Source of the DNA: Actinomycetaceae bacterium
Lineage (GTDB): Bacteria > Actinomycetota > Actinomycetes > Actinomycetales > Actinomycetaceae
Assembly: GCA_030524055.1 (NCBI GenBank)
Contig: JAUNHH010000017.1
Span: 1-46,789 of the forward strand
Direction: 5' to 3'
Length of the DNA stretch: 46,789 nucleotides
Shown: positions 3,931 through 46,789 of the stretch, piece after piece
How positions within the stretch are numbered: position 1 is the first letter of the stretch
Layout of the letters: each line of letters opens with the position of its first letter
Position numbers and translations under genes: made by a program
The notes under the pieces: model-generated
What the model was told of the DNA's origin: nothing
The model's input: only the letters and a program-made list of their open reading frames with translations
Database searches by the model: none

Positions 3931-5082
3931 TTATCGCAACGCCCCGTGAGCGTTGTCGCTCCTTGAAGGAGTTGTCGGACCATTAATGGTGACGCCAGCT
4001 CCCTCAAGGAGCACTTCACCATCAATATCAATGGGGTGTGTTTTCGCGTGGTGGGGAATCGTTAACGTTGCTTTTCCTGAGGTGGCAATGAAATGGCCTT
4101 TACCCATCACTGCCGTCGAATTTGCACTGACATCAATTTCTGCTGAATCAAGCCCGATAGTGCCACCGGCTGTTAACCCCGAATGATCGCCATCAATATT
4201 ATGTGTCCCACCAGAGAAAATAATATTTGTGCTGGCGAAAATGCCTGACGGTCCGCCATTAATTGCGACCGCGCTATCTGCCGATAACTCCACCCATCCG
4301 CGGCCAGGGTTTTCCGTATTCACCGCGGCAATCCCATCTCCATGGGAAGCAATCGTCAGATCGGCATTGTCAATCTGAATAGAGGAGGTTGATCGTAAAC
4401 CTGCCCCGCCAGCGCTCATCGTCATGGGAATGCCAGCAATAAATAAATCGCCACGAGTAGAAATACCATCGACTTTCGAGCCAGTAGTCAGATCTAAATA
4501 GCCTTTCCCTGTCATTGTCAGATCAGCAGAGGTGACAATTCCGGCGGCCCCATCATCTCCGCCAGTTGTGCGAATAGTGTTATTGCCGGACAGGGCAATG
4601 ACCGCAGAATCGGCATCAATAGTGATGGCAGTAGGGGTGGGTGACGTTAATGCCAAATTATCGAGGAGGAGGACCACATTTTCTCCGCGGGGAGCCGTAA
4701 CGTGGATTTGTCCTTTATGGACCCCGGAAAGACGGTGGACCCCGCCCTCGTGAATGGAAATAGTGCCCTTCCCGATTCCCGCCACGTTGCGTGCTGATTC
4801 AGATGACCACTCTGAGTCGGCAACAACGCGGGCGGGAATATGGGACGAACGAATATCAGCAATCGTGGAAGGAACCCCCTTAAAGGAAGCGCTCGCCGGA
4901 TGTGAGGCGGCCTCATCAACGGGGACGGTGAGGGACTGGGGAGTATTTGACCAGGACACTCCCATTGCGCCTGAAACTGGCCCTACGCTTTGCGATGTAT
5001 CCCCCGCGAAAGCGCAGGAGGAGAGGGCGTAGACGCTAATTGCAGCTGCTGCAATGATCGTCGAATGCAAGCCCCTTCTCAT
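3931..5082 (-). CDS. Secreted carbohydrate-binding beta-helix protein, Cthe_2159-like
   Basis: The 383-residue protein has an N-terminal signal sequence (basic start, then IIAAAAISVYALSSCAFAGD). Cleavage could be after AFA, or LSSC could act as a lipobox and make it a lipoprotein. From about residue 105 it has short beta-strand repeats: GTISIHEGGVHRLSG, GQIHVTAPRGENVVLLLDN, then many rungs ending in Thr/Asp/Asn turns (for example DGISTRGDLFIAG). This matches the Cthe_2159 domain, a calcium-binding parallel beta-helix known to bind acidic polysaccharide. A cell-surface or exported glycan-binding role is inferred. AGGAAGG stands six bases before the ATG. An 11-bp inverted repeat lies in the leader at 5118-5159. 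Confidence 0.72.
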   Translation of the reverse strand: MRRGLHSTIIAAAAISVYALSSCAFAGDTSQSVGPVSGAMGVSWSNTPQSLTVPVDEAASHPASASFKGVPSTIADIRSSHIPARVVADSEWSSESARNVAGIGKGTISIHEGGVHRLSGVHKGQIHVTAPRGENVVLLLDNLALTSPTPTAITIDADSAVIALSGNNTIRTTGGDDGAAGIVTSADLTMTGKGYLDLTTGSKVDGISTRGDLFIAGIPMTMSAGGAGLRSTSSIQIDNADLTIASHGDGIAAVNTENPGRGWVELSADSAVAINGGPSGIFASTNIIFSGGTHNIDGDHSGLTAGGTIGLDSAEIDVSANSTAVMGKGHFIATSGKATLTIPHHAKTHPIDIDGEVLLEGAGVTINGPTTPSRSDNAHGALR

Positions 5083-5402
5083 GGCCAGTCCTTCCTGCGT
5101 GTCATTTACTGCGGCTAACGACCGGATCCTGAGGAGAGAGAGGAGTCAGATCCGGTCGTCAACCACGTAACTATCGTGACTTATTGGCGCTATTGCGCGC
5201 TATGGGGCATACCCCCCATTTTTCCCAGCAGGGGACTCAGGGAAACCCCCTAGGTGCTATGGCCACCTGGCTTAGGTCGAATGGATGATGGGGTGGGGCC
5301 AAAAGTCGGCATGGCACTGCTGGCGTCCTGGAGATTGTGCGCATTGCGGCTGCGGATCAGCTGCGGCGCGCGGCACTCATTAACGCCGTGGTTTCGGAGA
5401 TT
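5083..5402. other. Intergenic region between ispF and the secreted protein gene
   Basis: About 320 bp are free of recognised genes. It holds the inverted repeat 5118-5159 near the start of the secreted-protein gene, and a weak ATGGGG/CCCCAT hairpin near 5199-5220. The part at 5290-5400 has coding-like composition on the plus strand but no recognisable product. Confidence 0.5.
5118..5159. promoter_or_regulatory. 11-bp inverted repeat in the leader of the secreted-protein gene
   Basis: ACGACCGGATC (5118-5128) is perfectly complementary to GATCCGGTCGT (5149-5159), separated by a purine-rich 20-base loop. It lies 36-77 bp upstream of the minus-strand ATG at 5082. It could be an operator or an mRNA leader hairpin; the sequence alone does not decide. 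Confidence 0.5.
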
Positions 5403-5909: not shown

Positions 5910-5915
5910 AGTCCA

Positions 5916-5921
5916 AGACTA
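5916..5921 (-). promoter_or_regulatory. -10 box (TAGTCT), leaderless ispF
   Basis: On the minus strand TAGTCT is followed by six bases and then the ispF ATG, which would place the transcription start at or next to the start codon. Confidence 0.5.
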
Positions 5922-6029: not shown

Positions 6030-6035
6030 GCCACT

Positions 6036-7499
6036 ATGCGTTACCACTCCACTCGACGTACTGGCTCTGAGGCTCCTGCGAGTTTCTGCGATATTCTCCT
6101 TGGCGGTTTAGCTCCGGATGGCGGCCTGTATTTACCGCAGGAATATCCTCAGGTGGGGGCCGAGACTTTAGGGCAGTGGCGGCGCATACTGAAAGAATCG
6201 GGATATGCGGCTTTAGCGACGGAGGTTCTGTCGCTCTTTATTGACGATATTCCTCGCGAGGATTTAGCGGGAATTTGTGCGCGGGCCTACCGCACTCCCG
6301 CATTTAGTGATCCTGATATTGTCCCGGTGAGCCGCCTTGAAGACGGCCTATGGTTAGCGCATTTATCCTATGGGCCAACAGCCGCATTTAAAGATATGGC
6401 GATGCAGCTTCTTGGTGAGCTTTTCGAGTATGAACTATCTCGGCGCGGCCAATGGCTGACCATTGTGGGTGCCACCAGTGGCGATACGGGTTCATCTGCG
6501 GAATACGCTTTACGAGGGCGGGGCGGCTTATCGGTTGTCATGCTCACCCCTGCTGGGCGAATGACCGCCTTCCAGCGCGCACAAATGTATTCCCTGATGG
6601 ATGACAATATTATTAATGTCGCTGTCGAGGGCGTTTTTGATGACTGCCAGGACCTAGTCAAAGCCCTCAATATGGATGCTGATTTTAAAGCCCAGTGGCA
6701 TATTGGCGCAGTGAATTCTATTAACTGGGCGCGAGTGGCAGCGCAAATTATTTATTATGTGGCGACGTGGCTACGAATGAGCGAAGAAATTGCCCCAGAA
6801 AACCCCGATAGTGCGCGTATTTCTGTCTGCGTTCCTAGCGGCAACTTTGGCAATATTTGCGCTGCACATATTGCCCGGTCAATGGGGATTCCCCTGGACG
6901 CCCTGATTGTGGCCACAAATGAAAATGACGTTCTCGACGAGTTTTTCCGTAAGGGCATGTATCGGGTGCGTAGTGCCAGCAATACCTATGCGACCTCTTC
7001 GCCGTCAATGGATATTTCTAAGGCCTCCAATTTTGAGCGCTTTATCCACGACCTTCTGGGCGGAGATTCGGCGCGCATTGCTGAGCTCTTTGGTCACACA
7101 CTTAATGCAGAGGGGGCCTTTGACCTCTCTGGCGAGCCAGCTTTTGAGCGTATTGCCCAGGACTATGGTTTCCGATCGGGAACGTCAACTCACCGCAATC
7201 GCTGCGAAGAAATTGCCCGCACCTACCAGACCAGCGGCTATATTCTTGACCCGCATACAGCCGATGGCGTTCATGTAGCGCGGGACTTTATTGACACTAT
7301 CGATACGCCCATTGTGGTGATGGAAACAGCTTTGCCCGTAAAATTTGCGGACACCATTATTGAGGCAATTGGACGTGGCCCTGATATTCCCGAACGTTTC
7401 GCCGGAATTGAAGATCTGCCCCAAAAAGTCGTCGATATGCCCAATAGCGTTGAGGCCCTCAAAGACCTGATTTCTTCTCGGGTACGCCAGGGCGCGTAA
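6036..7499 (+). CDS. thrC: Threonine synthase (long, fungal-type)
   Basis: A PLP enzyme of 487 residues that converts O-phospho-L-homoserine to threonine. MRYHSTR, GLAPDGGLYLP and YGPTAAFKDMAMQLLG are characteristic; Lys119 in the last motif should bind PLP. GATSGDTGSSAEYAL and the VPSGNFGNICA phosphate loop follow. The length fits the longer class found in E. coli and fungi. The ATG at 6036 was chosen because the family starts MRYxSTR and a -10 box ends six bases before it. A longer in-frame frame from 5856 reaches back through the ispF promoter and has no homology. An exact copy of the 13-mer repeat lies inside the gene at 6512. Confidence 0.95.
   Translation: MRYHSTRRTGSEAPASFCDILLGGLAPDGGLYLPQEYPQVGAETLGQWRRILKESGYAALATEVLSLFIDDIPREDLAGICARAYRTPAFSDPDIVPVSRLEDGLWLAHLSYGPTAAFKDMAMQLLGELFEYELSRRGQWLTIVGATSGDTGSSAEYALRGRGGLSVVMLTPAGRMTAFQRAQMYSLMDDNIINVAVEGVFDDCQDLVKALNMDADFKAQWHIGAVNSINWARVAAQIIYYVATWLRMSEEIAPENPDSARISVCVPSGNFGNICAAHIARSMGIPLDALIVATNENDVLDEFFRKGMYRVRSASNTYATSSPSMDISKASNFERFIHDLLGGDSARIAELFGHTLNAEGAFDLSGEPAFERIAQDYGFRSGTSTHRNRCEEIARTYQTSGYILDPHTADGVHVARDFIDTIDTPIVVMETALPVKFADTIIEAIGRGPDIPERFAGIEDLPQKVVDMPNSVEALKDLISSRVRQGA
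6512..6524 (+). repeat. 13-mer ACGAGGGCGGGGC, exact copy
   Basis: Inside thrC, where it encodes part of LRGRGG. See the finding on this repeat. Confidence 0.7.
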
Positions 7500-7621
7500 A
7501 AGGCGCCTAAAGAGCGCAGGATTATTTATTGGGCGCTGCCCCGGCCTCGTCAAGACCTATTCCTGCCCTGTTACACAGGTCCGAAAACGGCCTGGAAATA
7601 GGGCAGGGCGAGGATAGCGAC

Positions 7622-9096: not shown

Positions 9097-9109
9097 ACGA
9101 GGGCGGGGC
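9097..9109 (+). repeat. 13-mer ACGAGGGCGGGGC, exact copy
   Basis: Intergenic, 15 bp after the cysS stop codon. It lies between possible -35 (TTACGA, 9095) and -10 (CATAAT, 9118) hexamers for rlmB spaced by 17 bp. Confidence 0.7.
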
Positions 9110-10361: not shown

Positions 10362-11489
10362 ATGGCGCTGCCCTGGATTGAGATAGTCGAGTGCCTCGAC
10401 CCTGATCCTCAACTCGTGCTGTGGCGCTACCCGGATCCAGATGGACGTATTAAATCGGGCGCTCAGCTGCTGGTCCGCGAAAATCAAAGTGCTCTCCTAC
10501 TGGCGCGTGGTCAGGCTTCCGCCGTCTATCTGCCGGGTACTCACACTCTTCCCACAGAAAATATCCCAGTCCTCTCGGATCTCATGGGCTGGAAATACGG
10601 TTTTGCTTCGCCACATATTTACGACATCTTCTATGTCGCAATGCGCCAATTTGTGGACCTCAAATGGGGGACCCCGGCGCCAGTGATGATGCAAGATTCG
10701 CGTTTTGGCCAGATCCGCGTGCGAGCATTTGGCTCATATTCGGTGCGAATTGTTGATGTCGCCAAATTCTTCCGCGAATATGCCGGTGCCTATCCGGTAC
10801 TGACTATTCGTGATCTGGAAGTCCAACTCCGCGATTATATTGCCGCGAAATTCGGTGAAATCCTCGCCACCCACAATATTCCCGTTATTGATTTCGCGGC
10901 GAATTTATCCTCTGTTAATGCTCGCCTTCAACCCGCAATTGCCCCCTATTTTGAAGACCTCGGCGTTGAAATCACCCAATTCACGATTGCTTCGGTGACC
11001 CTGCCTGATGAAGTCAATGAGTATTACGACAAAGTCACCGGTATGAATATGGTTGGCGATATGGCCCGTTTCCAGGCCTTCAATACGGCCCTTGCCACCT
11101 CCAATCCGGAAACTGGGGTTGGCCAGGGAGTCCAAGGTGGAATGGCAATGGGCATGATGATGGGCCACGCCACCCAGCAAATGGGCCAGGTTTCGGCGCC
11201 CTATCCGCCCCAGGGTAGCTATCCAGCTGGTGGTCACTATCCCGCTCAGGGCGGACAGTACCCGCCTCAAGGCGCTCAATATCCGCCCGCCGCCCCTGCG
11301 GCTGGCGCCCCGCTCTCGTCACCAGAAATGGCGGGATACGCCGCGCCCACCCAGACCACTGGCTCCATGCCCAGCTCTGGCGAAGACCTGGTGGAGCGCC
11401 TTGGGCGACTCAAGAAAATGCTCGATGCCGGGCTAATTACTGAAGAAGATTTCGCGGCCAAAAAGGCCCAGATTTTAGAGGCACTGTAA
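10362..11489 (+). CDS. SPFH-domain protein with C-terminal SHOCT domain (YdjI-like)
   Basis: A 375-residue soluble protein. The SPFH/band-7-like domain occupies about 5-250; LLVRENQSALLLARGQ, PGTHTLPTENIPVLSDL and FFREYAGAYPVLTIRDLEVQLRD are typical of the B. subtilis YdjI group. A Gly/Met-rich stretch is followed by a low-complexity YPPQGxYPAQGG repeat (about 280-325) and a SHOCT-like end, EDLVERLGRLKKMLDAGLITEEDFAAKKAQILEAL. In B. subtilis the related protein recruits PspA to the membrane (family knowledge). AGGAG lies six bases before the ATG. The stop overlaps the next start (TAATG), so the two are translated together. Confidence 0.82.
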   Translation: MALPWIEIVECLDPDPQLVLWRYPDPDGRIKSGAQLLVRENQSALLLARGQASAVYLPGTHTLPTENIPVLSDLMGWKYGFASPHIYDIFYVAMRQFVDLKWGTPAPVMMQDSRFGQIRVRAFGSYSVRIVDVAKFFREYAGAYPVLTIRDLEVQLRDYIAAKFGEILATHNIPVIDFAANLSSVNARLQPAIAPYFEDLGVEITQFTIASVTLPDEVNEYYDKVTGMNMVGDMARFQAFNTALATSNPETGVGQGVQGGMAMGMMMGHATQQMGQVSAPYPPQGSYPAGGHYPAQGGQYPPQGAQYPPAAPAAGAPLSSPEMAGYAAPTQTTGSMPSSGEDLVERLGRLKKMLDAGLITEEDFAAKKAQILEAL

Positions 11490-14111: not shown

Positions 14112-14124
14112 ACGAGGGCGGGGC
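14112..14124 (+). repeat. 13-mer ACGAGGGCGGGGC, exact copy
   Basis: Intergenic. With the inverted copy at 14278-14290 it brackets repeat copy 1 like 13-bp terminal inverted repeats. Confidence 0.7.
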
Positions 14125-14172: not shown

Positions 14173-14290
14173 GGACAAACCGCCGCGAGGATGTGTTTTT
14201 TGCGGTGAATCTGCGTTGTGGTGGCGCTTTGTCAGTTGGGGCTGTGGGCCCGAAATTGCTGACCAGCAGAAATAGTGGCCCCGCCCTCGT
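14173..14290 (+). repeat. Dispersed structured repeat, copy 1 of 3
   Basis: It begins GGACAAACCGCCG, contains GAATCTGCGTTGTGGTGGCG and CTTTGTCAGTTGGGG, and ends GTGGCCCCGCCCTCGT. It aligns over its whole length with the copies at 23621 and 23767. GACAAACCGCCGC can pair with GGTGGCGCTTTGTC. Confidence 0.85.
14278..14290 (-). repeat. 13-mer ACGAGGGCGGGGC, exact copy (inverted)
   Basis: Forms the right end of dispersed repeat copy 1. Confidence 0.7.
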
Positions 14291-15352: not shown

Positions 15353-15595
15353 ATGGATAGCTCACTCAACGGCGGCGCCGATCAGCAGAAGAAGTCGGCG
15401 CCGCGCCAGCGCAAACAGATCCTTTTGCGCCTAGACCCAGCAGTTCATGAGGCCCTCGCCAAATGGGCAGCTGATGATCTGCGCTCGGTCAATGCGCAAA
15501 TTGAGATTCTCTTGCGCTCAGCACTTGATAATGCGGGACGTCTTCCCCGTGCTGCCCCTTTACGAGGACGGGGCCGCCCTCGTAAAGGGGAATAA
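15353..15595 (+). CDS. Arc-type ribbon-helix-helix DNA-binding protein with AT-hook-like tail
   Basis: An 80-residue protein. RKQILLRLDPAVHEALAKWAADDLRSVNAQIEILLRSAL (20-58) is an Arc/MetJ ribbon-helix-helix fold: one strand and two helices, DNA-binding as a dimer. The tail LRGRGRPRKGE carries RGRP, the core of an AT-hook. It starts two bases after the SPFH stop, so the two are certainly co-transcribed and the protein may regulate its own operon (inference). The last 36 bp of coding sequence form a near-perfect palindrome (15555-15590). Confidence 0.8.
   Translation: MDSSLNGGADQQKKSAPRQRKQILLRLDPAVHEALAKWAADDLRSVNAQIEILLRSALDNAGRLPRAAPLRGRGRPRKGE
15555..15590. terminator. 36-bp palindrome inside the end of the RHH gene
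   Basis: Two 17-base arms (15555-15571 and 15574-15590) pair with one mismatch around GG. The outer part is CCCCTTTACGAGG and its complement; the inner part consists of two inverted 13-mer-like words (ACGAGGACGGGGC and CCGCCCTCGT). It ends five bases before the end of the stop codon and has no U-run. It is a probable terminator or mRNA-stabilising hairpin. Confidence 0.5.
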
Positions 15596-15703: not shown

Positions 15704-17041
<1,338 letters not shown>

Positions 17042-17044
17042 CGA

Positions 17045-17076
17045 GGCCGGGGCGCGGGCGTTCAATGCCCGCGGCC
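17045..17076 (+). terminator. GC-rich hairpin after purA
   Basis: GCGGGC (17054-17059) pairs with GCCCGC (17067-17072), and flanking GGCC (17045-17048 and 17073-17076) can extend the stem across a bulge. It begins four bases after the purA stop. No U-run follows, so its strength is uncertain. Confidence 0.4.
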
Positions 17077-17196: not shown

Positions 17197-17329
17197 CGCG
17201 CTCCGCCCTCGTGAACGCCATTGATGTGATCACACCCGCCTTTTGCAACCACGCTAGACCTGCGCAGCATTAAGAGTTGTGCGCGCAAGGTGGATTGGGC
17301 ACCCCCGCACCTGTGTAAGGATTGGCAAC

Positions 17330-20742: not shown

Positions 20743-20755
20743 ACGAGGGCGGGGC
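20743..20755 (+). repeat. 13-mer ACGAGGGCGGGGC, exact copy
   Basis: Intergenic, eight bases after the dtd stop codon. Confidence 0.7.
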
Positions 20756-35054: not shown

Positions 35055-36583
35055 CCGCCTCGTCTCGTCGCGCCATTGAAGAGCCTCCACTTTTACCCGG
35101 TTATGAATGGATCCGTGATTTAGGTTCCGGTGGATTTGCTGACGTCCACCTCTACCGTCAACAGGTGCCCGCCCGGCGTGTGGCCGTGAAAGTGGTCCGC
35201 CGCACAACTGACGCTGAAGGCCGCGCCCAACTTCACCGGGAAGCCAACTCGATGGCCGCTGTTGCTGGCCACCCTGCCATTGTGGAACTTCATGGGGTGG
35301 GCACCACCGATGATGGGCGCCCCTATTTGGTGATGGAATATTGCCCTGTTGCCGATGTCGGTGAACAAATCCGCGTTCGACCGATGCCCCTTGATCGCGC
35401 TCTTGACGTGGTGATCCGCCTATGTGGCGGTCTGGAGATGATTCACCGGGCCAAAATCGTTCACCGCGACGTCAAGCCCGGAAATATCATGATGGACGCC
35501 TATGGGGCGCCCGTCCTTTCTGACTTTGGTGTGGCTTCGCGTATTGGCGCCCTAGAAGAAGGCGCTTTAGATGGTTTCTCGGTTTTGTGGGCGCCCCCTG
35601 AACAACATGACCCCACTACCCACGCCCACCCCACTCAAGATGTGTGGGCAATGGCCACAACAGCGTGGACCCTACTGACAGGCCGCTCGCCCTTTGAAGA
35701 GCCGGTGGGGGATAACTCGGCAGCGGGTATTGCTGCCCGCGTTCAAGATGGGCGCTTGCGTCCATTAGGCCGTTCAGATGCGCCCCCAGAACTAGAAGCG
35801 GCCCTGCGCGCTGCCATTACGGTTGACCCGGCGCGTAGGACCCGTAGCGCTGCGGAATTGGGCCGCGCGCTGCAATATGTCCAGGAGCTAATGGGTAAGC
35901 CCGTGACTCAAATGGATTTGCGGGAAGATCCTTTCCGTACGCCATCAGAGTTACCAGACGCTCAGGCGCCCATTGACCTCGATGACGATGAAGAAGCCAC
36001 ACGTCTGCGTGCGACTCCGCCTATTGATGAGTCCACGCGGATGCACTCCCCGGACTTTTCGCTTTTCGCGCAGGCCCCCCAGGAAGATGAGTGGACAGTT
36101 CGCGCTGCTCCTGGCAGTGACACCCCGCCCTCGTCAATTCCAACGGTCACGGGCCGACGCGGAACGCACCCTGCCACCCTGCTGGCCCTTGTGCTTGTGG
36201 GGGCGGTGGTGACGGGCACCATTGTGGTGGCCATGCTGACTCAGGGTGGGCGGATTATTCCCCCGCCGGGCGGCTCCGATTTAATCCAGTCACACACTCC
36301 TGTTGATGACCCTATCCCCACAATTCCCGAATCTGTGAGTAAAATCACTGCTACAGTTGAGGGGAAGGAAATTGTCTGGACCTGGGAGGAAAGCTCCTCG
36401 GCGCAGGACCGCACATATGTGTGGGTACTGCGCGGGCCCGGAAATAAAGAAGAAACAGGTAGTGTCACCGGCAGTAATGCGCGCACCGAAGCCGCGTCAG
36501 GCAGGAATTGCCTTGAACTTGTGGTGGTTGGTGAGGCAGGTCGTCAATCTGATCCTGTGGAGGAGTGTATTGATGTCCCCTGA
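35051..36583 (+). CDS. Membrane Ser/Thr protein kinase (Hanks type, Pkb2-like)
   Basis: A 510-residue protein. The kinase domain (about 17-275) has GSGGFADVHLY (glycine loop), VAVKVV (ATP lysine), IVHRDVKPGNIMM (catalytic loop), SDFGVAS (DFG) and WAPPEQ (APE equivalent). A juxtamembrane acidic/Thr-rich stretch (DDDEEATRLRATPP) looks like an FHA-docking, phosphorylatable region. One membrane segment lies at about 375-397, and the external 90 residues resemble a single FN3 domain (KITATVEGKEIVWTWEE) rather than PASTA repeats. AAAGGAGG precedes the ATG at 35051 by eight bases; the GTG at 35042 is inside that site. PP2C and FHA genes follow directly. Confidence 0.92.
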   Translation: MTASSRRAIEEPPLLPGYEWIRDLGSGGFADVHLYRQQVPARRVAVKVVRRTTDAEGRAQLHREANSMAAVAGHPAIVELHGVGTTDDGRPYLVMEYCPVADVGEQIRVRPMPLDRALDVVIRLCGGLEMIHRAKIVHRDVKPGNIMMDAYGAPVLSDFGVASRIGALEEGALDGFSVLWAPPEQHDPTTHAHPTQDVWAMATTAWTLLTGRSPFEEPVGDNSAAGIAARVQDGRLRPLGRSDAPPELEAALRAAITVDPARRTRSAAELGRALQYVQELMGKPVTQMDLREDPFRTPSELPDAQAPIDLDDDEEATRLRATPPIDESTRMHSPDFSLFAQAPQEDEWTVRAAPGSDTPPSSIPTVTGRRGTHPATLLALVLVGAVVTGTIVVAMLTQGGRIIPPPGGSDLIQSHTPVDDPIPTIPESVSKITATVEGKEIVWTWEESSSAQDRTYVWVLRGPGNKEETGSVTGSNARTEAASGRNCLELVVVGEAGRQSDPVEECIDVP

Positions 36584-37502
36584 CACGTTGGAGAGAGGAC
36601 TGGTCCTGACTGGTCCCCTCATTCCTTCCGTTCCTCATAGCCCGCATATACGCATTGCGTGGGGTGCCGCCAGTAACCGCGGGACAGTACGTCCCGCCAA
36701 TGAAGATGCCTGGCTCGCGGCAGAAAATCTGTGGGCAGTTGCCGACGGAATGGGTGGACACTCCCGTGGTGCCAACGCTTCGGCCACAGCCGTTCGCGTC
36801 CTCGCTGAGGCCCTGGATTCTGGCCGCCTTGGTGGGCGCATTCCCGACGTGGCAGACCTTGACCGCGCGGTCAGCGAAGCTGCCGTTGCCGTTGCCCAGC
36901 TCGCCATCGCCGCCGACCCGACACGATCTCCCGGCACCACGCTGACTGCCGGGACGGTAATTCCTATGGGCGAGGGCGGGGCCAGCCCCCATTGGGTGGT
37001 TCTCAATATTGGAGACTCCCGCGCCTGGGCGGTCAGCGAAACCGGAATCCACCAAGTCACGACAGATCATTCGATTTTGCAGGAAGCTAAAGATTTAGCT
37101 GCGGCCACCGGCATTGAAGTGGTGATGCCGCCCGCAAATGTTGTGACACGTGCCTTAGGGGCGGCAAGTGTGGGCGTTCCCACCGCAGATTTTTTCGCAC
37201 TTCCGCTACGTGATAGAGATCGCCTTGTGCTGACCACAGATGGTGTTCACGGCGTTTTAGCACCCGAGGAAATCCTTTCTACCGTGTGGGAAAACGACCC
37301 TCAGACCGGTGCTGACCTGCTTGTTGAACGAGCGCTAGAGGTGGGTAGCCGCGATAACGCTACAGCGGTTATCGTTCACGTCGAGGTGGTCGTTGCGACT
37401 CAAAAGTTGGACAATGGAGCGGCAGGCCCACGGCGTGCTGTCCCAGTGACCCCCGCGGAGACCACCACGTCCCCACGGCGATACAGTGAAGGCGGTTCAT
37501 GA
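36573..37502 (+). CDS. PP2C-family Ser/Thr protein phosphatase
   Basis: A 309-residue soluble PPM phosphatase, the presumed opponent of the upstream kinase. Metal-binding motifs are intact: RPANEDAWL, VADGMGGHSRG, NIGDSRAW, TTDGVHGVL and GSRDNATAVIVHV. The start at 36573 was chosen for its position inside the kinase stop (11-base overlap) and GGAGG a few bases ahead. A longer open frame from 36357 lies wholly within the kinase gene and has no homology. There is no membrane segment, so it acts in the cytoplasm. Confidence 0.92.
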   Translation: MSPDTLERGLVLTGPLIPSVPHSPHIRIAWGAASNRGTVRPANEDAWLAAENLWAVADGMGGHSRGANASATAVRVLAEALDSGRLGGRIPDVADLDRAVSEAAVAVAQLAIAADPTRSPGTTLTAGTVIPMGEGGASPHWVVLNIGDSRAWAVSETGIHQVTTDHSILQEAKDLAAATGIEVVMPPANVVTRALGAASVGVPTADFFALPLRDRDRLVLTTDGVHGVLAPEEILSTVWENDPQTGADLLVERALEVGSRDNATAVIVHVEVVVATQKLDNGAAGPRRAVPVTPAETTTSPRRYSEGGS

Positions 37503-38569
37503 TGCTGCAGGTAGGGATGCACTCTGTACGAGGTACAGGGGCAGTCATGGTGGCGGGACCGCGCGGAGTCGCTCTGGTTCCTGAACATCTTGCAGAAGGT
37601 GCTTATGGGGCACTGACCGGCCGGGGCGAAATCCGCGGCTGGCTCTCTGAAGTTCGTGCCACCCAGGCTGATGCCGCCCTCCTTGATCTTTCCGGCCCCT
37701 ACTGCTGCCTGACCCTCCTGGGTGCAGCCACCGCCACCGCCTACCCGGACGCCACCAGTGAACCTGTCCTATGGAATCAACTCTGGGGCGCAGTTGTGGA
37801 CCCCACCACATTAGAGCGCGTTGAAATTCGCCTCTCCATGGCTGACCGCGGACCGTGGGTGCGTACTGTTGAAGATGTCCTACCCGCCTCCGAATTGTGT
37901 ATTGGATTCCCGCCCTCGGTCACTGGAATGACAGGAATGCACGCCGCTATTCCTCATCCCAATGGCGCCAATGCCACAGAAGGAGTGACAGCCCCAGCCA
38001 CCGGTGGACCTCTGTCTGTCTCCTCGGCGGAAGGCTCCCTGCCAGTTGTCACCCCCGAAGAAAATTCGTGGCCCACATTGCCAGGAACCCCGGCCTCGTC
38101 CGCAATGACTGCCACCCCAGCTGATGGCACCCCAGAACCTGTCTCCCCGTGGGCGCCTGACAATAGCGAAGAATCCCCCGTTGAGGTCACCGTTTTGCGC
38201 CGCCACACCGCTGATGGCGTCAAAGTACCTATTGCTTTCCTCGTGCACTCCGCCTCCGCCCCTGTGGAACTGACCCGCGACGTCGTTATTGGGCGCGACC
38301 CGAATCCCCACGTCCTAGAAGGCCGCGGAGTTGCCCTGGACCTACGCGTACCCAGCCCCGCCACCGAAATTTCCCGGAATCATTGCGCCGTCCTTTCCGA
38401 AGGCAATGGCACCTGGTCAGTAATGGATTTAGGGTCAGCAAATGGCACCCTGCTGCGCCGCGCTGACGGCACCATGGCTGACCTGCCGCCGCGTGAACGT
38501 GTCTCCCTGACTGATGGTGACCTCATTGACGTGGGCGAAAACACGACGATTGAGTTCCGCGTCAGCTGA
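37499..38569 (+). CDS. FHA-domain protein
   Basis: A 356-residue protein. An N-terminal globular region (1-130) is followed by a Pro/Thr/Ala-rich linker (about 140-225). A forkhead-associated domain (about 255-356) has VVIGRDPNPH, SRNHCAVL and DLGSANGTLL, the phosphothreonine-binding features. It probably reads phosphorylation by the kinase two genes upstream. It overlaps the PP2C gene by four bases (ATGA) and closes the operon. A 13-mer variant, ACGAGGCCGGGGT, falls in the linker at 38087 (minus orientation). Confidence 0.9.
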   Translation: MMLQVGMHSVRGTGAVMVAGPRGVALVPEHLAEGAYGALTGRGEIRGWLSEVRATQADAALLDLSGPYCCLTLLGAATATAYPDATSEPVLWNQLWGAVVDPTTLERVEIRLSMADRGPWVRTVEDVLPASELCIGFPPSVTGMTGMHAAIPHPNGANATEGVTAPATGGPLSVSSAEGSLPVVTPEENSWPTLPGTPASSAMTATPADGTPEPVSPWAPDNSEESPVEVTVLRRHTADGVKVPIAFLVHSASAPVELTRDVVIGRDPNPHVLEGRGVALDLRVPSPATEISRNHCAVLSEGNGTWSVMDLGSANGTLLRRADGTMADLPPRERVSLTDGDLIDVGENTTIEFRVS

Positions 38570-38663: not shown

Positions 38664-41375
38664 ATGGTCAAGTACGTGTATGACTTCTCCGAGGGCGACA
38701 AGTCCCAAAAGGACCTGCTCGGAGGTAAGGGAGCCAACCTTGCTGAAATGACCCGGCTGGGCCTACCCGTTCCCCCCGGATTCACCATTTCCACCGAAGC
38801 CTGCCGCGCCTACCTGCGTGAAGGCCAGGTCCCAGAATCGCTTCACACTGAGGTCACCCAGGCCCTGCGCCGCGTGGAAGACCAAATGGGCCGCCAACTC
38901 GGAGACGCCAAAGACCCGCTGCTTGTCTCTGTGCGGTCCGGCGCAAAATTCTCTATGCCAGGCATGATGGAAACAGTGCTCAATATTGGCCTCAATGATG
39001 AGTCTGTTGTTGGCCTCGCCCAGGCCTCCGGTAACGAGCGTTTCGCATGGGACTCCTACCGCCGCCTCATCCAGATGTTCGGCAAGACCGTGCTCGACAT
39101 TGATGGCGACCTTTTCCTCAACGCCATTGACGACCTCAAAGCCAAGCGTGGTGTCACCGCTGACACCGACCTCACCGCCGACGATATGCGCGAACTCGTC
39201 GATATCTTCAAGGGCATTGTTCGCGACGCCACCGGCAAAGACTTCCCCCAAGACCCCCGCGACCAGATGGACCAGGCCACCGAAGCCGTCTTCCGCTCGT
39301 GGAATACCGAACGCGCCCGCATCTACCGCCGCCGCGAACGCATCCCCCACGACCTGGGCACCGCCGTCAATGTCTGCACCATGGTCTTTGGCAATATGGG
39401 CGAAGATTCCGGCACCGGCGTGTGCTTTACCCGCGACCCTTCCACCGGCCACTCAGGTGTGTACGGTGACTACCTGAATAACGCTCAGGGTGAAGACGTG
39501 GTGGCCGGTATCCGCAATACCCTGCCCCTGTCGGCTCTGGGCGAGCAGAACCCGGCCGTCTATGACGAGCTGCGTGGCATTATGCGCAAACTGGAAACCC
39601 ACTACCGGGACCTGTGCGATATCGAGTTCACGGTAGAGCGCGGCAAGCTGTGGATGCTGCAGACCCGCGTGGGTAAGCGCACCGCCGCTGCGGCCTTCCG
39701 TGTGGCCGTGCAGTTGGTTGATGAGAAGCTCATTACCCGCGACGAGGCCCTGACCCGCGTCACCGGTGAGCAGCTGACCCAGCTGATGTTCCCCCAATTT
39801 GATGCGGGTGCGTCTAAGGAACTGGTGGCTAAGGGTATGGCTGCCTCCCCGGGTGCGGCTGTCGGCCGGATTGTTTTTGATAATGCCCAGGCTGAGGCCG
39901 CTGCCGCTGCAGGCGAGAAGTCCATTTTGGTGCGCCGCGAAACCAACCCGGATGACCTGCCGGGTATGGTCGCCGCTGAGGGCGTGCTGACCGCGCGCGG
40001 CGGCAAGACCTCGCACGCCGCCGTTGTCGCGCGCGGTATGGGTAAGACCTGTGTCTGTGGCGCGGAAGCCCTCAATATTGATGCTGAGGCGGGCACCGTC
40101 ACCATTGGTGACCGCGTCCTGACCGGCAAAGACACCATTGCTATTGATGGCCAGACCGGCGAGATTTTCCTCGGCGAGGTGGCGGTGACCGATTCCCCGG
40201 TGACCACCTATTTGAGCCAGGGCCTGGAAGCTGGCCTGGCCGCTGCCGGCGAAGATGAGGGCACCCGCGAGCTCATTACCGCGGTGGATCAGCTGCTGAC
40301 CCACGCGGACAGTGTCCGTCGCCTGCGCGTGCGCGCCAATGCGGACACCCCTGAGGATTCGCGTCGTGCCATTGATTTTGGCGCTGAAGGTATTGGCCTG
40401 TGCCGCACCGAGCACATGTTCCTTGGGGACCGTCGCCCCATTGTTGAGCGGCTGATCCTGTCGGAGGCAGATTCCCCCGAGCGTGAAGCAGCCTTCGGCG
40501 AGCTCGCGAATCTGCAGAAGACGGACTTCCTCCAGATGCTGGAAGTCATGGATGGTAAGGCCATGACGGTGCGTCTGATTGACCCGCCGTTGCACGAGTT
40601 CCTGCCCTCCCTGTCAGAACTGGAAGTCAAGATCGCCGTGGCGAAGGCAACCGGCGCTGCGGTGGACCCGGCCGATGAGGAAATGATCGTGGCGGTGCGC
40701 CGTTTCCACGAGCAGAACCCCATGCTGGGTCTGCGTGGTGTGCGTCTGGGCATTTACCTGCCTGGCCTTTTCGCCCTGCAGATGCGTGCCCTCTGTGAGG
40801 CCGCTGCTGAGCTGGTTGCCGCTGGGAAGGATCCTCGTCCGGAAATTATGGTGCCGCTGGTCGGTTCCATCCGCGAACTGCAGCTGATCCGTGAGGAAGG
40901 CGAAGCCATTATTGCCGCGGTTGCGACCGATAAGGGCGTGGACCTGTCTGGCGTGACTATTGGTGCGATGATTGAGTTGCCGCGTGCGGCAATGACCGCT
41001 GAGGATCTCGCTCAGGAAGCGGACTTCTTTAGCTTCGGTACCAATGACCTGACGCAGACGGTGTGGGGCTTCTCCCGTGACGATGTGGAGGGCGTGTTCT
41101 TCGCTCAATACATTGAGGCCGGTATTTTCGGTGTGTCGCCCTTTGAGTCCATTGATATTCATGGCGTCGGTACAGTAGTGGCTGAAGGCGTGAAGCGTGC
41201 GCGTTCGACCAAGCCTGACATTAAGTTGGGCGTGTGTGGTGAGCACGGTGGCGATCCGCTGTCGATCCACTTCTTCCACGAGGTGGGCTTGGATTATGTG
41301 TCCTGTTCTCCTTTCCGCGTGCCTGTGGCGCGCCTTGAGGCGGGCCGCGCTGCTGTGGAGGTTGCTGAACAGTGA
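38664..41375 (+). CDS. ppdK: Pyruvate, phosphate dikinase
   Basis: A 903-residue enzyme interconverting pyruvate + ATP + Pi with PEP + AMP + PPi. The ATP-grasp domain starts KYVYDFSEGDKSQKDLLGGKGANLAEM. The swivelling domain contains LTARGGKTSHAAVVARGMGKTCVCG with the phosphohistidine (His451) and the regulatory-type Thr two residues before it. The PEP/pyruvate barrel has GIGLCRTEHMF, SFGTNDLTQTVWGFSRDD and GVCGEHGGDP. The ATG at 38664 was chosen because GAGGG precedes it and the family starts near KYVYxF; the frame is open to 38610. Codon use is noticeably more biased to GC-ending codons than its neighbours, consistent with high expression. Confidence 0.96.
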   Translation: MVKYVYDFSEGDKSQKDLLGGKGANLAEMTRLGLPVPPGFTISTEACRAYLREGQVPESLHTEVTQALRRVEDQMGRQLGDAKDPLLVSVRSGAKFSMPGMMETVLNIGLNDESVVGLAQASGNERFAWDSYRRLIQMFGKTVLDIDGDLFLNAIDDLKAKRGVTADTDLTADDMRELVDIFKGIVRDATGKDFPQDPRDQMDQATEAVFRSWNTERARIYRRRERIPHDLGTAVNVCTMVFGNMGEDSGTGVCFTRDPSTGHSGVYGDYLNNAQGEDVVAGIRNTLPLSALGEQNPAVYDELRGIMRKLETHYRDLCDIEFTVERGKLWMLQTRVGKRTAAAAFRVAVQLVDEKLITRDEALTRVTGEQLTQLMFPQFDAGASKELVAKGMAASPGAAVGRIVFDNAQAEAAAAAGEKSILVRRETNPDDLPGMVAAEGVLTARGGKTSHAAVVARGMGKTCVCGAEALNIDAEAGTVTIGDRVLTGKDTIAIDGQTGEIFLGEVAVTDSPVTTYLSQGLEAGLAAAGEDEGTRELITAVDQLLTHADSVRRLRVRANADTPEDSRRAIDFGAEGIGLCRTEHMFLGDRRPIVERLILSEADSPEREAAFGELANLQKTDFLQMLEVMDGKAMTVRLIDPPLHEFLPSLSELEVKIAVAKATGAAVDPADEEMIVAVRRFHEQNPMLGLRGVRLGIYLPGLFALQMRALCEAAAELVAAGKDPRPEIMVPLVGSIRELQLIREEGEAIIAAVATDKGVDLSGVTIGAMIELPRAAMTAEDLAQEADFFSFGTNDLTQTVWGFSRDDVEGVFFAQYIEAGIFGVSPFESIDIHGVGTVVAEGVKRARSTKPDIKLGVCGEHGGDPLSIHFFHEVGLDYVSCSPFRVPVARLEAGRAAVEVAEQ

Positions 41376-41425
41376 CGAGGCCGGGGTTCCAGTTGTTGCC
41401 AGCTGGGCCCCGCCCTTTCTTTCCT
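41374..41425 (+). terminator. Imperfect hairpin after ppdK
   Basis: ACGAGGCCGGGGT directly follows the stop codon. GGGGTTCCAG (41381-41390) can pair imperfectly with CTGGGCCCC (41403-41411), and CTTTCTTTCC comes after. It uses a variant of the 13-mer as one arm. Confidence 0.4.
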
Positions 41426-41731: not shown

Positions 41732-43926
41732 TGAGCTGCCCTCATTGCGGACCGGGCACCGCCCTCGTTGATGACGAGCTGGCAACATCTGCCACCACTG
41801 ACCCCACTATTGTCCTGCTGGGCAACCCTAATGTTGGAAAATCCTGCCTTTTTAACCTGGTGACGGGCGCTCGGCAGGCTGTGGTTAATGCTCCTGGCAC
41901 CACGGTGGAAATGATGGCTGGCCGCTGGTCGGCTCTGCGGGCACGGATTCTTGACCTGCCTGGCACTTACTCTCTGATTGCGACCTCGCCAGATGAGCAG
42001 GTTGTGGTCGATACTTTGGCGGGTGCTCCCGGATCTTTTACTGACCCGGAATCTGGCCGCAATGTGGACCTGGCTGTGGTGCTTTTGGATGCGACGGCGC
42101 TGACCCGTTCGTTGTATCTTCTGGGCCAAGTTGGGCGCACGGGCTGCCCGGTGGTCGCAGTGCTAACGATGGCTGATGTGCAGGCCCATGAAGGCGAAAT
42201 AGTCAATGCCGATGGCCTGGCGGCGGCTTTAGGTGTGCCCGTCATGGTTATTGACCCACGCAGCCGCAAAGGCATTGCTGGCTTTGAAGAGATGGTGCGC
42301 ACTGCGCTGGCCACGCGCCCCCGCTTGCGTGGGATTGACCCTGCGCCAATGGCTCCTGGTTTTAACCAGAAGGCCGCTGCGGCAGCACTACAAAAGGATG
42401 GCGAGAAATGCCAATGCGCGCACCATCACGCGCCAGAATCGAGCGAGGATCGCGCAGCTGAGGGCTGCTGCCAAAGGTCAGAGAGCGAAGCTAAGGCCGG
42501 CGCCACCGAGGCGGCCACACTGCCCGACCCCGCCACCCACGACTCCATGGCAGAAGCTGATCTGCTTTTCACCTGGGTGGAAAAGGTAGAAAAGGAGGCG
42601 CAGACTGGAGGCTCGGCTCATGCTGCGCTGTCGCGCTCCGATAAGATCGACCGTTTCTTGCTGCACCCTGTGGTCGGAATCCCTGTGTTTTTTGCCCTGA
42701 TGTGGGTGCTTTTTAAGGTCGCGGGCGAATGGGTTGGCCCTATCCAAGACCTTTTTGACTCCTTCTTTACCAGTGAGGATGAGGGGGCCTGGTCGCTGGC
42801 CAATGCGCTCAATGCTCTGCTGGCCGGAGTGAATCTGCAGGACACGTGGGTTCAGGGACTTCTGGTGGGTGGCCTCGCCACCGGTCTTGGTGTGGTCGCC
42901 TCATTCTTGCCGCTCATGTTCATTATCTTCCTTATGATTTCTATTCTGGAAGATTCTGGATATATGGCGCGTGCGGCCTTCCTGGGGGATCGCCTGATGC
43001 GTGCGATCGGCTTGGATGGCCGGGTGATTATGCCGCTGATTATGGGCTTTGGCTGTAACTTGCCTTCTTTGGCGGCAACGCGCACTCTTCCTAGCGCTGC
43101 CCAGCGCCTGGTAACGACTCTGATTGTGCCCTACGCGTCCTGCGCTGCTCGCCTGACGATTTACCTGATGATTGCGCGCATTTTCTTCCCTGAAAACACT
43201 GGCACTGTCGTTTTTGCGATGTATGTCTTGTCCCTGGCCATGATTGTGATCGGGGCACTCATTCTTCGGCCCTTCTTTACGCGCGGAGAAAACAAGGCGC
43301 CACTGATGCTGGTGCTGCCCGCCTATCAAATGCCGCGCCCGCTTGTGGCCTTGAAGAATACGTGGATGCGCGCGTGGGCTTTCGTTAAAGGCGCTGGGAA
43401 AATCATTGTGGTGATGACCCTGGTGGTGTGGCTGATGGGTGCAATCCCCATGGCCGCTGGCTATTCCTTTGCTGACCCGGAGCTGCCCATGGAGGATTCC
43501 CTCTACGGGCGCACGGCGCAAACCCTTGTGCCTGCCTTTGCGCCCGCGGGTTTTGGGGAATGGCATATGACAGGTGCCCTCATGACGGGTTTTGTCGCGA
43601 AAGAAACCGTGATTTCGTCGATTGTCACCTCCTATAACCTCGACCCTGAAGTTGATGGGGGAGATGCCGAAGACGGTGGAGACGACCTTGGTTCCCTGCC
43701 AGAACTGGTGACAGGCTCTTTCGCCTCTTCTGCGGGCAGCGCCGCTCCTGTGGCGGCCTTTGCCTTCCTGGTCTTTGTCCTGACCTATACCCCATGCTTG
43801 GCCACTGTTGCTGAACAGGCCAGGCAAGTCGGTGGAAAATTGGCAGCTGCAGCAGTTGTCGTCCAATTGGCGGCCGCATGGACATTGGCTGTGCTGATTT
43901 TCCAGATTGGTCGTCTTTTCTTCTAA
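41731..43926 (+). CDS. feoB: FeoB ferrous iron transporter
   Basis: A 731-residue inner-membrane Fe2+ transporter with a cytosolic G-domain: LLGNPNVGKSCLFN (G1, about 28-41), DLPGTYSL (G3) and LTMAD (G4, with Thr where Asn is usual). The membrane part includes LEDSGYMARAAFLGDRLMRAIGLDGR, MGFGCNLPSLAATRTL, PYASCAARLTIY and GFVAKETVISS, the Gate and core features. A CPHC motif at the N-terminus and a Cys/His-rich insert (KCQCAHHHA...EGCCQR, about 226-250) between the G and membrane domains are unusual. It is coupled to feoA and followed 16 bases later by the FeoC-like gene. Confidence 0.95.
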   Translation: MSCPHCGPGTALVDDELATSATTDPTIVLLGNPNVGKSCLFNLVTGARQAVVNAPGTTVEMMAGRWSALRARILDLPGTYSLIATSPDEQVVVDTLAGAPGSFTDPESGRNVDLAVVLLDATALTRSLYLLGQVGRTGCPVVAVLTMADVQAHEGEIVNADGLAAALGVPVMVIDPRSRKGIAGFEEMVRTALATRPRLRGIDPAPMAPGFNQKAAAAALQKDGEKCQCAHHHAPESSEDRAAEGCCQRSESEAKAGATEAATLPDPATHDSMAEADLLFTWVEKVEKEAQTGGSAHAALSRSDKIDRFLLHPVVGIPVFFALMWVLFKVAGEWVGPIQDLFDSFFTSEDEGAWSLANALNALLAGVNLQDTWVQGLLVGGLATGLGVVASFLPLMFIIFLMISILEDSGYMARAAFLGDRLMRAIGLDGRVIMPLIMGFGCNLPSLAATRTLPSAAQRLVTTLIVPYASCAARLTIYLMIARIFFPENTGTVVFAMYVLSLAMIVIGALILRPFFTRGENKAPLMLVLPAYQMPRPLVALKNTWMRAWAFVKGAGKIIVVMTLVVWLMGAIPMAAGYSFADPELPMEDSLYGRTAQTLVPAFAPAGFGEWHMTGALMTGFVAKETVISSIVTSYNLDPEVDGGDAEDGGDDLGSLPELVTGSFASSAGSAAPVAAFAFLVFVLTYTPCLATVAEQARQVGGKLAAAAVVVQLAAAWTLAVLIFQIGRLFF

Positions 43927-43938
43927 CGAGGGCGGGGC
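43926..43938 (+). repeat. 13-mer ACGAGGGCGGGGC, exact copy
   Basis: Overlaps the last base of the feoB stop and fills the gap to the feoC-like ATG at 43943. Its GAGGG may double as the ribosome site. Confidence 0.7.
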
Positions 43939-43942
43939 CGCA

Positions 43943-44310: not shown

Positions 44311-44386
44311 TATGCCCGTTTGGTGTCGCACTCGCTTGGCGGAGGTGGTCCTAAGCAGCGCCCGCCCCAGGGGTGGCCACTGGCAT

Positions 44387-46789
44387 TTACTGACCTGCGC
44401 CCCGGCCTCGTAAAAGGGTGGCCAAATGAACCCCGCCACGACTGGCCAATTGCTCGGCTTGGGTGCGGCACGAGAAACCATCCGCTAAATACACCGCATC
44501 TGGATGCTCCTCTAATGCTGGCAAAAGAGCAGTTTCAGCTACCGCGACACTGGTTTCGTAATGGCCTTTCTCCATGCCGAAATTCCCGGCCAAACCGCAA
44601 CAGCCCTCCAATTTCGTGACCCGCGCTCCCAGGGACTCCAAAAGAGCCTGATCGCTGGCCCACCCCATGACCGAATGGTGGTGACAATGCGGTTGGGCCA
44701 CAATCTCCACACCGCTTAAATCTGGCAAATCACGCTGCTCAGCAGGAATATCAGCGAGAAGTTCCGCCAAGGTGCGCACCGCGCCTGACACCATGTGTGA
44801 GCGCGGATCATCAGGCAGCAAATCCAGCAAGTCATCACGCAAAACAGCTGTACACGACGGCTCCACTCCCACAATCGGAATGCCATTAGCCGCAAAAGGC
44901 GCCAATGCATCCAACAGCTTCGCTAAATGCTTTTTCGCCCCCGCAAGTTGGCCGGTAGTAATCCACGTCAGACCGCAACACGCATCCGGGGCGAGAATCG
45001 GCGTAAAACCATTGGCCTCTAAAACCTCCACCATGGCTTGGGCACCCGTATCATCCAGGGTCTGCGAGAAACTATCCGCCCAGATGACCACAAAATTCCG
45101 GGGAGCAGGGGAGCTGGCTGCGCCCTCGTGCATGGAAGAAGGAAGAGAGGAGGAAAGGCCACGCTTGCGTGCCCACCGCGAAAAAGTCCCCGCCTGGAGC
45201 GGCGGCATTGGGCGACGACCATCTAAACCAATCACAGAAAAAACCGCTCGCCGCAGGGGCGCAAAACTCAGCACCGCATTGCCCAGGGCCGCCACTCCAG
45301 GAATACGGGCTGTTAGGCGAGTCCACCGCGGCAACCAGCCCAAGGTGTAATGCGAGAGCGGGCGCAACCTGCCCCGATACTTCCGGAAATAGACCTCCGA
45401 CCGATACTTCGCCATATCCACCCCAGCAGGACAGTCTGAGGAACAGGCTTTACACGCCAAACACAAATCCAAGGCCTCAAGGACCTCATCAGAGTCGATT
45501 GCGGCGATGAGTTGCCCATTTGCTGCATCCTGCAAGGTGCGCGCTCGGCCCCGCGTCACATCCTTTTCATCCCCGCTCGCCTTAAAAGACGGGCACATAA
45601 ACGCCCCCGACACTCCTGCCCGGCATTTACCCACTCCCGTACAGCGGTGAAGAGCCGTGGTGAAATCGCCATGGTCCTCATGGAAAGCAAACCCGCCATC
45701 AGCTGGCATCGGCCGCGCGGCAGGCCGGCGCAAATAGGCATCCAATGGGTCCACGCCCGGCTGGGGGTCCTGGGGCGCGGTTCCGGTTTTGCTGGCGCCG
45801 TGGGGCCCGTGGGCGCCGTGGGGCCCGCCAATGGACGAGGCCGGGGTGCCAGCTGCGTGGGCGCTCGCCTGGCGCTGCGCACTCGCCTGGCGATCATGGG
45901 CCTGGCGCTCTTGGGCACGCCGCTGAGCGGTGGCCGTATCCATCGGCGAGGTCAATACCCCAGGATTGAGCAGATTCTCCGGATCAAAAACATGCTTCAC
46001 CTGGGCAAAAAGATCCAACATCTCCGGCGAATACATAAAACGCAACAGCTCAGAACGGGCACGCCCATCCCCATGCTCACCCGACACCGAACCCCCGTGA
46101 CGGGCCACCAGCCGCGCAGACTCCTCCAAGAAATGACGCGAGCGCGCCACGCCCTCGTCAGAATCCAACGGCAAATCAAGGCGGACATGCACGCATCCAT
46201 CCCCAAAATGGCCATAAAGAAGCCCATCAATCCCACTAGACTCCATTAACGCCGTAAACTCCCGCAAATACGCGCCAAGTTTCGCCGGCGGAACCGCCGC
46301 ATCTTCCAGGCCCGGCCAGGCCTGCTCACCGCCACCGCCGGTTTCAGGATTTACCGGGGTCCGCCCGCCAAGACCAGCCCCATCAGCGCGAATACGCCAC
46401 AATGCAGAAGCCTCCGACCCCGGCGGGTACACCGCCACCGCATCGGTTGACGCACTGTCCGCTAAAGCATGAGCTCGGCGCAAAGAATCTGCTTCATCGG
46501 CGCCCCCGACCTCGCACATCATCCACCCTTGCCCATCCGGCAGAGGAGGAACCGCGCCCGGCCCCTTATGGCGGCGTACCACCTCAATGAGACGAGAATC
46601 CATCCCCTCAACAGCGAGCGGCTTGTGGCCCAACAAAGAGGGCACATCGTCAGCGGCAGCGATCATATCCGGATAACCCAATACCACCAGCACAGGCGAC
46701 GTCGGCAGCGGCACCAGGCGGACAGTAATCGAGACAATCGTGACCAAAGTGCCTTCAGTGCCCACCAACATTGCCGCAAGATTCCGGCC
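44387..46789 (-). CDS. FAD-linked oxidase/Fe-S protein fusion (D-lactate or D-2-hydroxyacid dehydrogenase type), partial
   Basis: The gene is cut by the window end; 800 residues are visible and the frame stays open (GRNLAAMLVGTEGTLV). Visible parts are the end of the FAD-binding domain and the FAD-oxidase C-terminal domain (GHFGDGCVHVRLD, SGEHGDGRARSELL). A low-complexity linker follows (Gln/Ala/His/Gly-rich, about residues 290-350 of the visible part). The Fe-S part has CTGVGKCRAGVSGAFMCPSF and CLACKACSSDCPAGVDMAKYRSE, plus two CCG-type motifs (DACCGLTW, EGCCGLAGNFG). This matches the YdiJ/Dld fused dehydrogenases that oxidise D-2-hydroxy acids into the quinone pool; the exact substrate cannot be told. 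Confidence 0.85.
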   Translation of the reverse strand, partial: GRNLAAMLVGTEGTLVTIVSITVRLVPLPTSPVLVVLGYPDMIAAADDVPSLLGHKPLAVEGMDSRLIEVVRRHKGPGAVPPLPDGQGWMMCEVGGADEADSLRRAHALADSASTDAVAVYPPGSEASALWRIRADGAGLGGRTPVNPETGGGGEQAWPGLEDAAVPPAKLGAYLREFTALMESSGIDGLLYGHFGDGCVHVRLDLPLDSDEGVARSRHFLEESARLVARHGGSVSGEHGDGRARSELLRFMYSPEMLDLFAQVKHVFDPENLLNPGVLTSPMDTATAQRRAQERQAHDRQASAQRQASAHAAGTPASSIGGPHGAHGPHGASKTGTAPQDPQPGVDPLDAYLRRPAARPMPADGGFAFHEDHGDFTTALHRCTGVGKCRAGVSGAFMCPSFKASGDEKDVTRGRARTLQDAANGQLIAAIDSDEVLEALDLCLACKACSSDCPAGVDMAKYRSEVYFRKYRGRLRPLSHYTLGWLPRWTRLTARIPGVAALGNAVLSFAPLRRAVFSVIGLDGRRPMPPLQAGTFSRWARKRGLSSSLPSSMHEGAASSPAPRNFVVIWADSFSQTLDDTGAQAMVEVLEANGFTPILAPDACCGLTWITTGQLAGAKKHLAKLLDALAPFAANGIPIVGVEPSCTAVLRDDLLDLLPDDPRSHMVSGAVRTLAELLADIPAEQRDLPDLSGVEIVAQPHCHHHSVMGWASDQALLESLGARVTKLEGCCGLAGNFGMEKGHYETSVAVAETALLPALEEHPDAVYLADGFSCRTQAEQLASRGGVHLATLLRGRGAGQ

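Follow-up and report, generated by a model that had tools for sequence, protein, structure and literature searches.

A CGAGG-centred 13-bp word in an Actinomycetaceae genome is a probable DNA-uptake sequence with dialects among its congeners

The window analysed here is the full 46,789-nt stretch at the start of contig JAUNHH010000017.1 of an Actinomycetaceae bacterium (assembly GCA_030524055.1). Through its genes and gaps runs a 13-bp word, ACGAGGSCGGGGY, which we consider very likely to be a DNA-uptake sequence, a tag by which a naturally competent bacterium would recognise DNA of its own kind. The first of its exact copies is a ACGAGGGCGGGGT on the minus strand at 4739..4751, inside a minus-strand open reading frame (ORF, 3931-5082). 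The threonine synthase ORF (5856-7499) contains ACGAGGGCGGGGC at 6512..6524 (plus) and is followed, 39 bp past its end, by an intergenic ACGAGGCCGGGGC at 7538..7550 (minus). Another ACGAGGGCGGGGC, at 9097..9109 (plus), lies between genes 15 bp past the end of the cysS ORF (7634-9082), and two more are intergenic at 14112..14124 (plus) and 14278..14290 (minus). At 17041..17053 (plus), a ACGAGGCCGGGGC starts on the final base of purA (15755-17041), its first A completing the TAA stop codon. The ORF 18978-20300 has two minus-strand ACGAGGGCGGGGC copies, at 19108..19120 and 19760..19772, and the D-Tyr-tRNA deacylase ORF (20300-20734) is trailed at 9 bp by an intergenic plus-strand one, at 20743..20755.

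Past an intergenic ACGAGGGCGGGGC at 23872..23884 (minus) begins a large ORF, 24180-30263, which encodes a 2,027-aa protein with bacterial immunoglobulin-like (Ig), cadherin-like and fn3 domains and holds ACGAGGGCGGGGT at 24751..24763 (plus) and ACGAGGCCGGGGC at 29922..29934 (minus). After it come genes for MoxR, DUF58, transglutaminase, kinase, PP2C and FHA proteins, and beyond these a PEP-utilising enzyme gene, feoA and feoB (to 43926). Within this region, ACGAGGGCGGGGT at 36122..36134 (minus) is inside the protein-kinase ORF (35042-36583) and ACGAGGCCGGGGT at 38087..38099 (minus) inside the FHA-domain ORF (37499-38569). Two further copies again share their first A with the end of a stop codon: the ACGAGGCCGGGGT at 41375..41387 (plus) with the TGA of ORF 38610-41375, where it overlaps the start of feoA (41372-41731), and the ACGAGGGCGGGGC at 43926..43938 (plus) with the TAA of feoB (41731-43926), where it also falls in a doubtful ORF, 43907-44248. 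The last two lie inside the minus-strand ORF 44387-46771, ACGAGGCCGGGGC at 44399..44411 (minus), close to the stop codon, and ACGAGGCCGGGGT at 45835..45847 (plus).

One-mismatch copies are interspersed with these. On the plus strand they are ACGAGGACGGGGC (15562..15574) and ACGAGGTCGGGGT (25408..25420), both variants of the 7th base, together with ACGAGGCTGGGGC (22158..22170), ACGAGGGCGGGGA (22761..22773), TCGAGGGCGGGGC (27814..27826) and GCGAGGGCGGGGC (36970..36982); on the minus strand they are ACGAGAGCGGGGC (11307..11319), ACGAGGGCGGAGC (17200..17212), ACGAGGGCGAGGC (24615..24627), ACGAGGGCGGTGC (41756..41768) and ACGAGGGCGTGGC (46146..46158). The sequence-only reading in which the word was first noticed had placed the exact sites correctly apart from two slips (29932 for 29922 and 41374 for 41375); all eight of its one-mismatch sites exist, but those at 11307, 22158 and 25408 had been overlooked.

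The same reading had put the chance expectation of the word well below one per window, and the excess proves larger than it claimed. The window holds 19 exact sites against 0.01 expected, a number reached by none of 100 shuffles, and 30 sites against 0.36 expected when up to one mismatch is allowed. Across the organism's own genome (a 3.03-Mb draft, hereafter G000; other G numbers denote further Actinomycetaceae genomes) there are 1,065 exact copies, one per 2.85 kb, 528 of them forward and 537 reverse, while the word read backward gives 0 and 2. The count is thus neither near expectation nor confined to the window. The 12-mer ACGAGGGCGGGG alone has 100 copies in 341 kb against 0.06 expected, which is 1,749-fold above a second-order Markov expectation.

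We searched 213 genomes of the family, from 36 genera, for the same word. Exact copies number from 0 to 374 in the 34 other genomes of the organism's own genus, and at most 20 in each of the 178 genomes from outside it (35 genera). One genome of the family set matches the purA of Ancrocorticia populi, whose genus is placed in the Actinomycetaceae, at 100%. A looser pattern, ACGAGGNCGNGG, reaches 1,475 copies against 20 for its control in G000, 1,235 against 19 in G146 and 896 against 22 in G163. Several congeners appear to have words of their own. Because dialects read from raw k-mers are partly codon effects, we based dialect claims on a null combining a synonymous-codon shuffle with resampled intergenic DNA, on an intergenic test and on genome counts. 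The null was applied to 28 genome samples, each of 20 to 401 kb, and most of these claims rest on samples rather than on whole genomes. The dialect word of G000, CGAGGGCG, was observed 273 times against 33 after codon shuffling, and is also the word of G151 and G170. ACGAGGCC or CGAGGCCG are the words of G162, G147, G155, G165, G166 and G169, with ACGAGGCC high on the word lists of six relatives; under the same null CGAGGACG is the word of G167, ACGAGGCG of G175, and CCGAGGCC of G158 and G161. Every one of these words contains CGAGG.

Genome-wide counts of TGMCGAGGCSG support the dialects of G175 (267 against 6 for the control) and of G158 and G161 (184 against 5 and 185 against 1); G164 has 209 against 14 and G152 216 against 19, and the other congeners, G171 excepted, have 23 to 138. 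Between genes, ACGAGG ranks first among 60 words of the same composition in G000 and in 7 of 21 other samples (with ties in G147 and G155), second to fifth in 8 of the 21 and lower in 6. It was without clear enrichment in the intergenic samples of G152, G171, G174, G175, G160 and G006, the last of another genus, and no dialect word found support in the samples of G171 and G006. Other words or repeats head the list in some samples, including those of G144, G148, G152, G157 and G163.

Several of these other words deserve a brief record. The words GGGGAAAA/TGAGCGGG of G148 and ATAGACTT/GTAACTGA of G152 have about 46 to 84 copies per sample and may be clustered regularly interspaced short palindromic repeat (CRISPR) arrays. 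G157 (L108, L189, L190) has a CTGAGCGGACTTCGA-like word unrelated to CGAGG, GCGGACTT occurring 34 times in 60 kb against 2.5 expected. The sample of G163 contains 13 to 28 copies of the words GGATAGGT/ATCCGGAT, where 0.2 to 2 would be expected; G147 has fewer. In 40 kb of G006 (L205-L206) GCCGATGA/CGATGACC stand about 4-fold over the codon null, perhaps as another genome word or by chance. In G171 the sole word above its control is ATTGACGAGG, 16 against 2. A second candidate there, TGAGGCAAAG, was rejected as an artefact: 8 of its 25 genome copies form a single tandem array at exact 30-bp steps (G171:C6:12858-13077), and the remaining 17 are only modestly above the number in congeners. Separately, a database entry named Vibrio cholerae strain 35D (L086), whose purA is 60% identical to that of our organism and ranked among actinobacterial matches, may be mislabelled or contaminated.

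The word is also retained where its surroundings change. Around comEC, we compared 40 kb among nine congeners, all of the C-dialect, and found 19 distinct orthologous sites, of which 18 could be scored with their flanks. The motif was better conserved than its own flanks at 17 of the 18 loci (Wilcoxon p = 4e-5). Over 665 directed genome comparisons, which are not independent, identity was 0.956 for the motif, 0.788 for the flanks and 0.865 for control words matched in GC; in these same non-independent pairs 77.6% of sites had a perfect counterpart in the second genome, whereas 28.8% of control words did and 8.7% would be expected had the sites evolved as their flanks did. The difference in identity between motif and flanks indicates that the sites sit in fast-evolving sequence and are nevertheless kept.

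Such retention would also suit a signal read inside the cell, in replication, repair or segregation, such as a site for a nucleoid protein or a Chi-like or KOPS-like element (KOPS, FtsK-orienting polar sequences). KOPS and Chi are short, non-palindromic, chromosome-wide words, as this one is, and they are strand-polar. The spacing of our word, too, is chromosome-wide and somewhat more even than random, with a coefficient of variation of 0.81 against 0.96 in simulations, 1.9% of which were equally even. Strong polarity, however, is not seen. Besides the near-equal forward and reverse counts of the whole genome, each 25-kb bin of the 254-kb contig C3 has copies on both strands (59 plus and 41 minus overall), and the single-contig relative G163 has 215 forward and 203 reverse copies, its forward sites being evenly spread over the part covered (the initial 1.11 Mb of its 2.53 Mb has 100 of the 215; this is for forward sites only and with the position of the origin unverified). 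The sequence-only argument that both orientations speak against an FtsK/KOPS-like signal is thereby borne out. In addition, were the word read in the cytoplasm, each dialect would require many sites to be rewritten jointly; a joint shift of all sites to the dialect of a species would be hard to obtain in that way, and would follow more readily from biased import of DNA. We therefore regard an intracellular signal as unlikely, though it is the strongest of the alternatives.

The anatomy of the word was studied in 108 exact sites and in a 401-kb sample of the own genome (L149-L151, C3, C4 and the window). It extends beyond 13 letters: AT(T/G)(G/A) is preferred immediately upstream and there is a weak preference for T at 6 to 9 bases ahead of the first A, while the conserved block terminates at the final C/T and the farther flanks hold weak signals only. 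The 401-kb sample contains 86 exact copies of ACGAGGGCGGGGC, 106 with one mismatch and 101 with two; the reversed word has 0, 1 and 29. Just 4 of the 106 single changes fall in CGAGG (positions 2 to 6), which makes it the least tolerant stretch, while positions 7 and 13 bear 59 and positions 1 and 11 bear 30. The letters that resist change in G000 are thus the same ones that are common to the dialects. A minor repeated word, GCGGTTTGTC, occurs 14 times on both strands of the same 401 kb, against 0.7 expected.

These features sit poorly with a mobile or selfish short repeat spread by transposition, of the kind of repetitive extragenic palindromic (REP) sequences, bacterial interspersed mosaic elements (BIMEs) or miniature inverted-repeat transposable elements (MITEs). 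The high copy number and the hairpin-forming inverted pairs described below would be in keeping with such an element. Past about 4 upstream bases and the final C/T, though, the flanks carry little signal, more than half of the sites are intragenic, and the single-mismatch copies cluster at few positions, as constrained mutation would have it rather than families of elements. We give this explanation very little weight.

Placement was assessed on 167 sites, counted with the 7th base free, against genes from a simple purpose-made ORF caller. Called genes contain 99 of them and 68 are wholly or partly outside, in a sample that is 86.4% coding, and the densest class is the gaps between convergent genes (26 sites in 10.6 kb). 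The word had been described as favouring positions just after stop codons, and this holds: 36 of the 65 fully intergenic sites are no more than 60 bp from the 3' end of a gene, against 14% of random intergenic positions. All 14 close pairs (less than 60 bp apart) are inverted and none is direct; all fold into stable hairpins, and of the 11 that are intergenic, 8 have convergent genes on either side. Inverted pairs at gene ends may be used as transcription terminators. It is highly improbable, however, that the word is solely a terminator arm or another RNA signal. The 3'-end enrichment and the hairpins speak for this, yet just 28 of the 167 sites are in close pairs and most are single, the 99 intragenic sites occur in both orientations, and single intragenic sites far exceed chance.

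We can practically dismiss a by-product of codon usage or GC composition, to which the abundance of ACGAGG in high-GC relatives and codon-shuffled expectations that are often at least half of the observed counts might point, in view of the excess of CGAGGGCG that survives codon-preserving shuffling in G000, the top intergenic rank of ACGAGG there and in seven other samples, and its lack of enrichment in G006, the only genome sampled from outside the genus (38 against 47).

The machinery for taking up DNA is present in the own genome. comEA, with SLBB and helix-hairpin-helix domains, precedes comEC (L150:8585-11064), and DprA is also encoded. One Tad locus (L149:10096-14678) comprises an ATPase, two T2SSF proteins and TadE- and Tad-family proteins; another, on the minus strand of L151, has an ATPase and a T2SSF protein and, as judged by reading its sequences, probably a small Flp-like pilin and two TadE/TadG-like proteins. 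Within the genus, ComEC was found in each of the 32 good genomes, and in 33 of 35 when all are counted. Uptake sequences are characteristically missing from newly gained genes; as material on mobile islands, the own genome offers only two matches to the Phage_integrase family. The link between Tad pili and the motif is circumstantial.

Among known systems, the uptake signal sequences (USS) of Pasteurellaceae have A/T-rich flanks and are used in inverted pairs. Our word resembles them in its inverted pairs and in having a core with weaker A/T-rich flank positions, here the upstream T preference. It differs in the word itself and in phylum, and the GCGG core of the USS types, as given in the excerpts available to us, is missing from the ACGAGGCCGGGG dialect; for this reason we take the GCGG in the G-dialect to be a chance overlap. 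The likeness to the DNA uptake sequence (DUS) of Neisseriaceae is broader. The available parts of two papers describe inverted DUS pairs at terminators, permissive locations and dialects in Neisseria (PMC3630211, PMC2397512), and our word likewise has about a thousand copies on two strands, inverted pairs at gene ends, permissive sites and dialects with a shared core. Even the balance between one-mismatch copies (106) and exact ones (86) is comparable with the neisserial ratios of 1.15 and 1.45 given in the part of PMC3630211 at hand. In contrast, the core here is CGAGG and not the CTG given in these excerpts, CTG being present in neither strand of ACGAGGGCGGGGC or ACGAGGCCGGGGC; the host belongs to the Actinomycetota and is not a proteobacterium; the pilus loci found are Tad-type; and uptake is here proposed from sequence. 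By its sequence the word belongs to neither DUS nor USS proper, and it appears to represent a novel form of such a tag.

In the portion available of a 2025 paper, Neisseriaceae and Pasteurellaceae are the only families named as having sequence-specific uptake (PMC12616744). Our literature search, made on titles and abstract openings with few subscription papers and no bioRxiv preprints, met no actinobacterial uptake sequence, and the titles matching the words themselves do not concern bacterial genomes. The closest actinobacterial parallel is Micrococcus luteus, which, according to the sections of PMC6370729 available, has comEA, comEC and two tad-like clusters, a gene set resembling that of our organism, and requires Flp pili for transformation; unlike here, no uptake sequence was seen in those sections.

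Several observations weigh against an uptake sequence, or narrow what can be drawn from the data. The congener G171 is without a clear motif (0 exact copies, 10 of the looser pattern against 18 in its control, and 9 of TGMCGAGGCSG against 7), even though comEA, comEC and a single Tad ATPase locus are present there. G154, G160 and G168 are only modestly above their own codon-shuffle nulls. ComEC, DprA and Tad-type ATPases are widespread, with matches in many control genomes too, so that the presence of com and tad genes is weak evidence. The second, C44-type Tad locus was at one point a candidate for the specificity machine, genomes without its ATPase having seemed motif-poor with our first patterns; that idea was rejected, and the locus appears dispensable for the motif, since G152, G158, G161 and G164, which form a clade and lack this ATPase by our grouping of hits, have a dialect. 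Conservation was measured in C-dialect congeners and not in G000, whose relatives are distant, and 3 of the 18 loci have the site in just a single genome. Finally, positions 8, 9, 10 and 12 of the word also seldom vary (13 of the 106 changes), and the core within this one genome is therefore wider than the core shared by the dialects.

Against these points stand the two-strand excess, the hairpin pairs, the permissive placement, the conservation above flanks, the dialects and the com and tad genes, which together support the proposal of the sequence-only reading that the word resembles an uptake sequence. If so, a receptor on the Tad/Flp competence pilus, or at ComEA, would bind the CGAGG-centred tag, ComEA and ComEC would bring one strand into the cell, and DprA and a presumed RecA would recombine it into the chromosome. 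Since tagged fragments would be imported more often, tagged alleles would overwrite untagged ones, and the tag would accumulate wherever it does little harm. Pairs of tags in inverted orientation could then be reused as transcription terminators, and a shift in receptor specificity would cause the genome-wide set of tags to drift, giving rise to dialects.

On balance, though with distinctly less assurance than for an uptake sequence as such, we favour the view that this is a third, independently evolved system of self-DNA recognition for transformation. It would be the first in the Actinomycetota and in a monoderm lineage, and would be read by Tad/Flp rather than type IVa pili, with at least five CGAGG-core dialects (the G-, C-, A-, CG- and CCGAGGCC-types) that would serve as mating barriers at the level of species. 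Such a third example, from a phylum far removed from the other two, would mean that genome watermarks evolve repeatedly, and it would show for the first time how Tad/Flp competence pili recognise self DNA. A single genus with several dialects would allow receptor and tag to be matched, and its members are predicted to be naturally transformable with tagged DNA, and hence genetically tractable.

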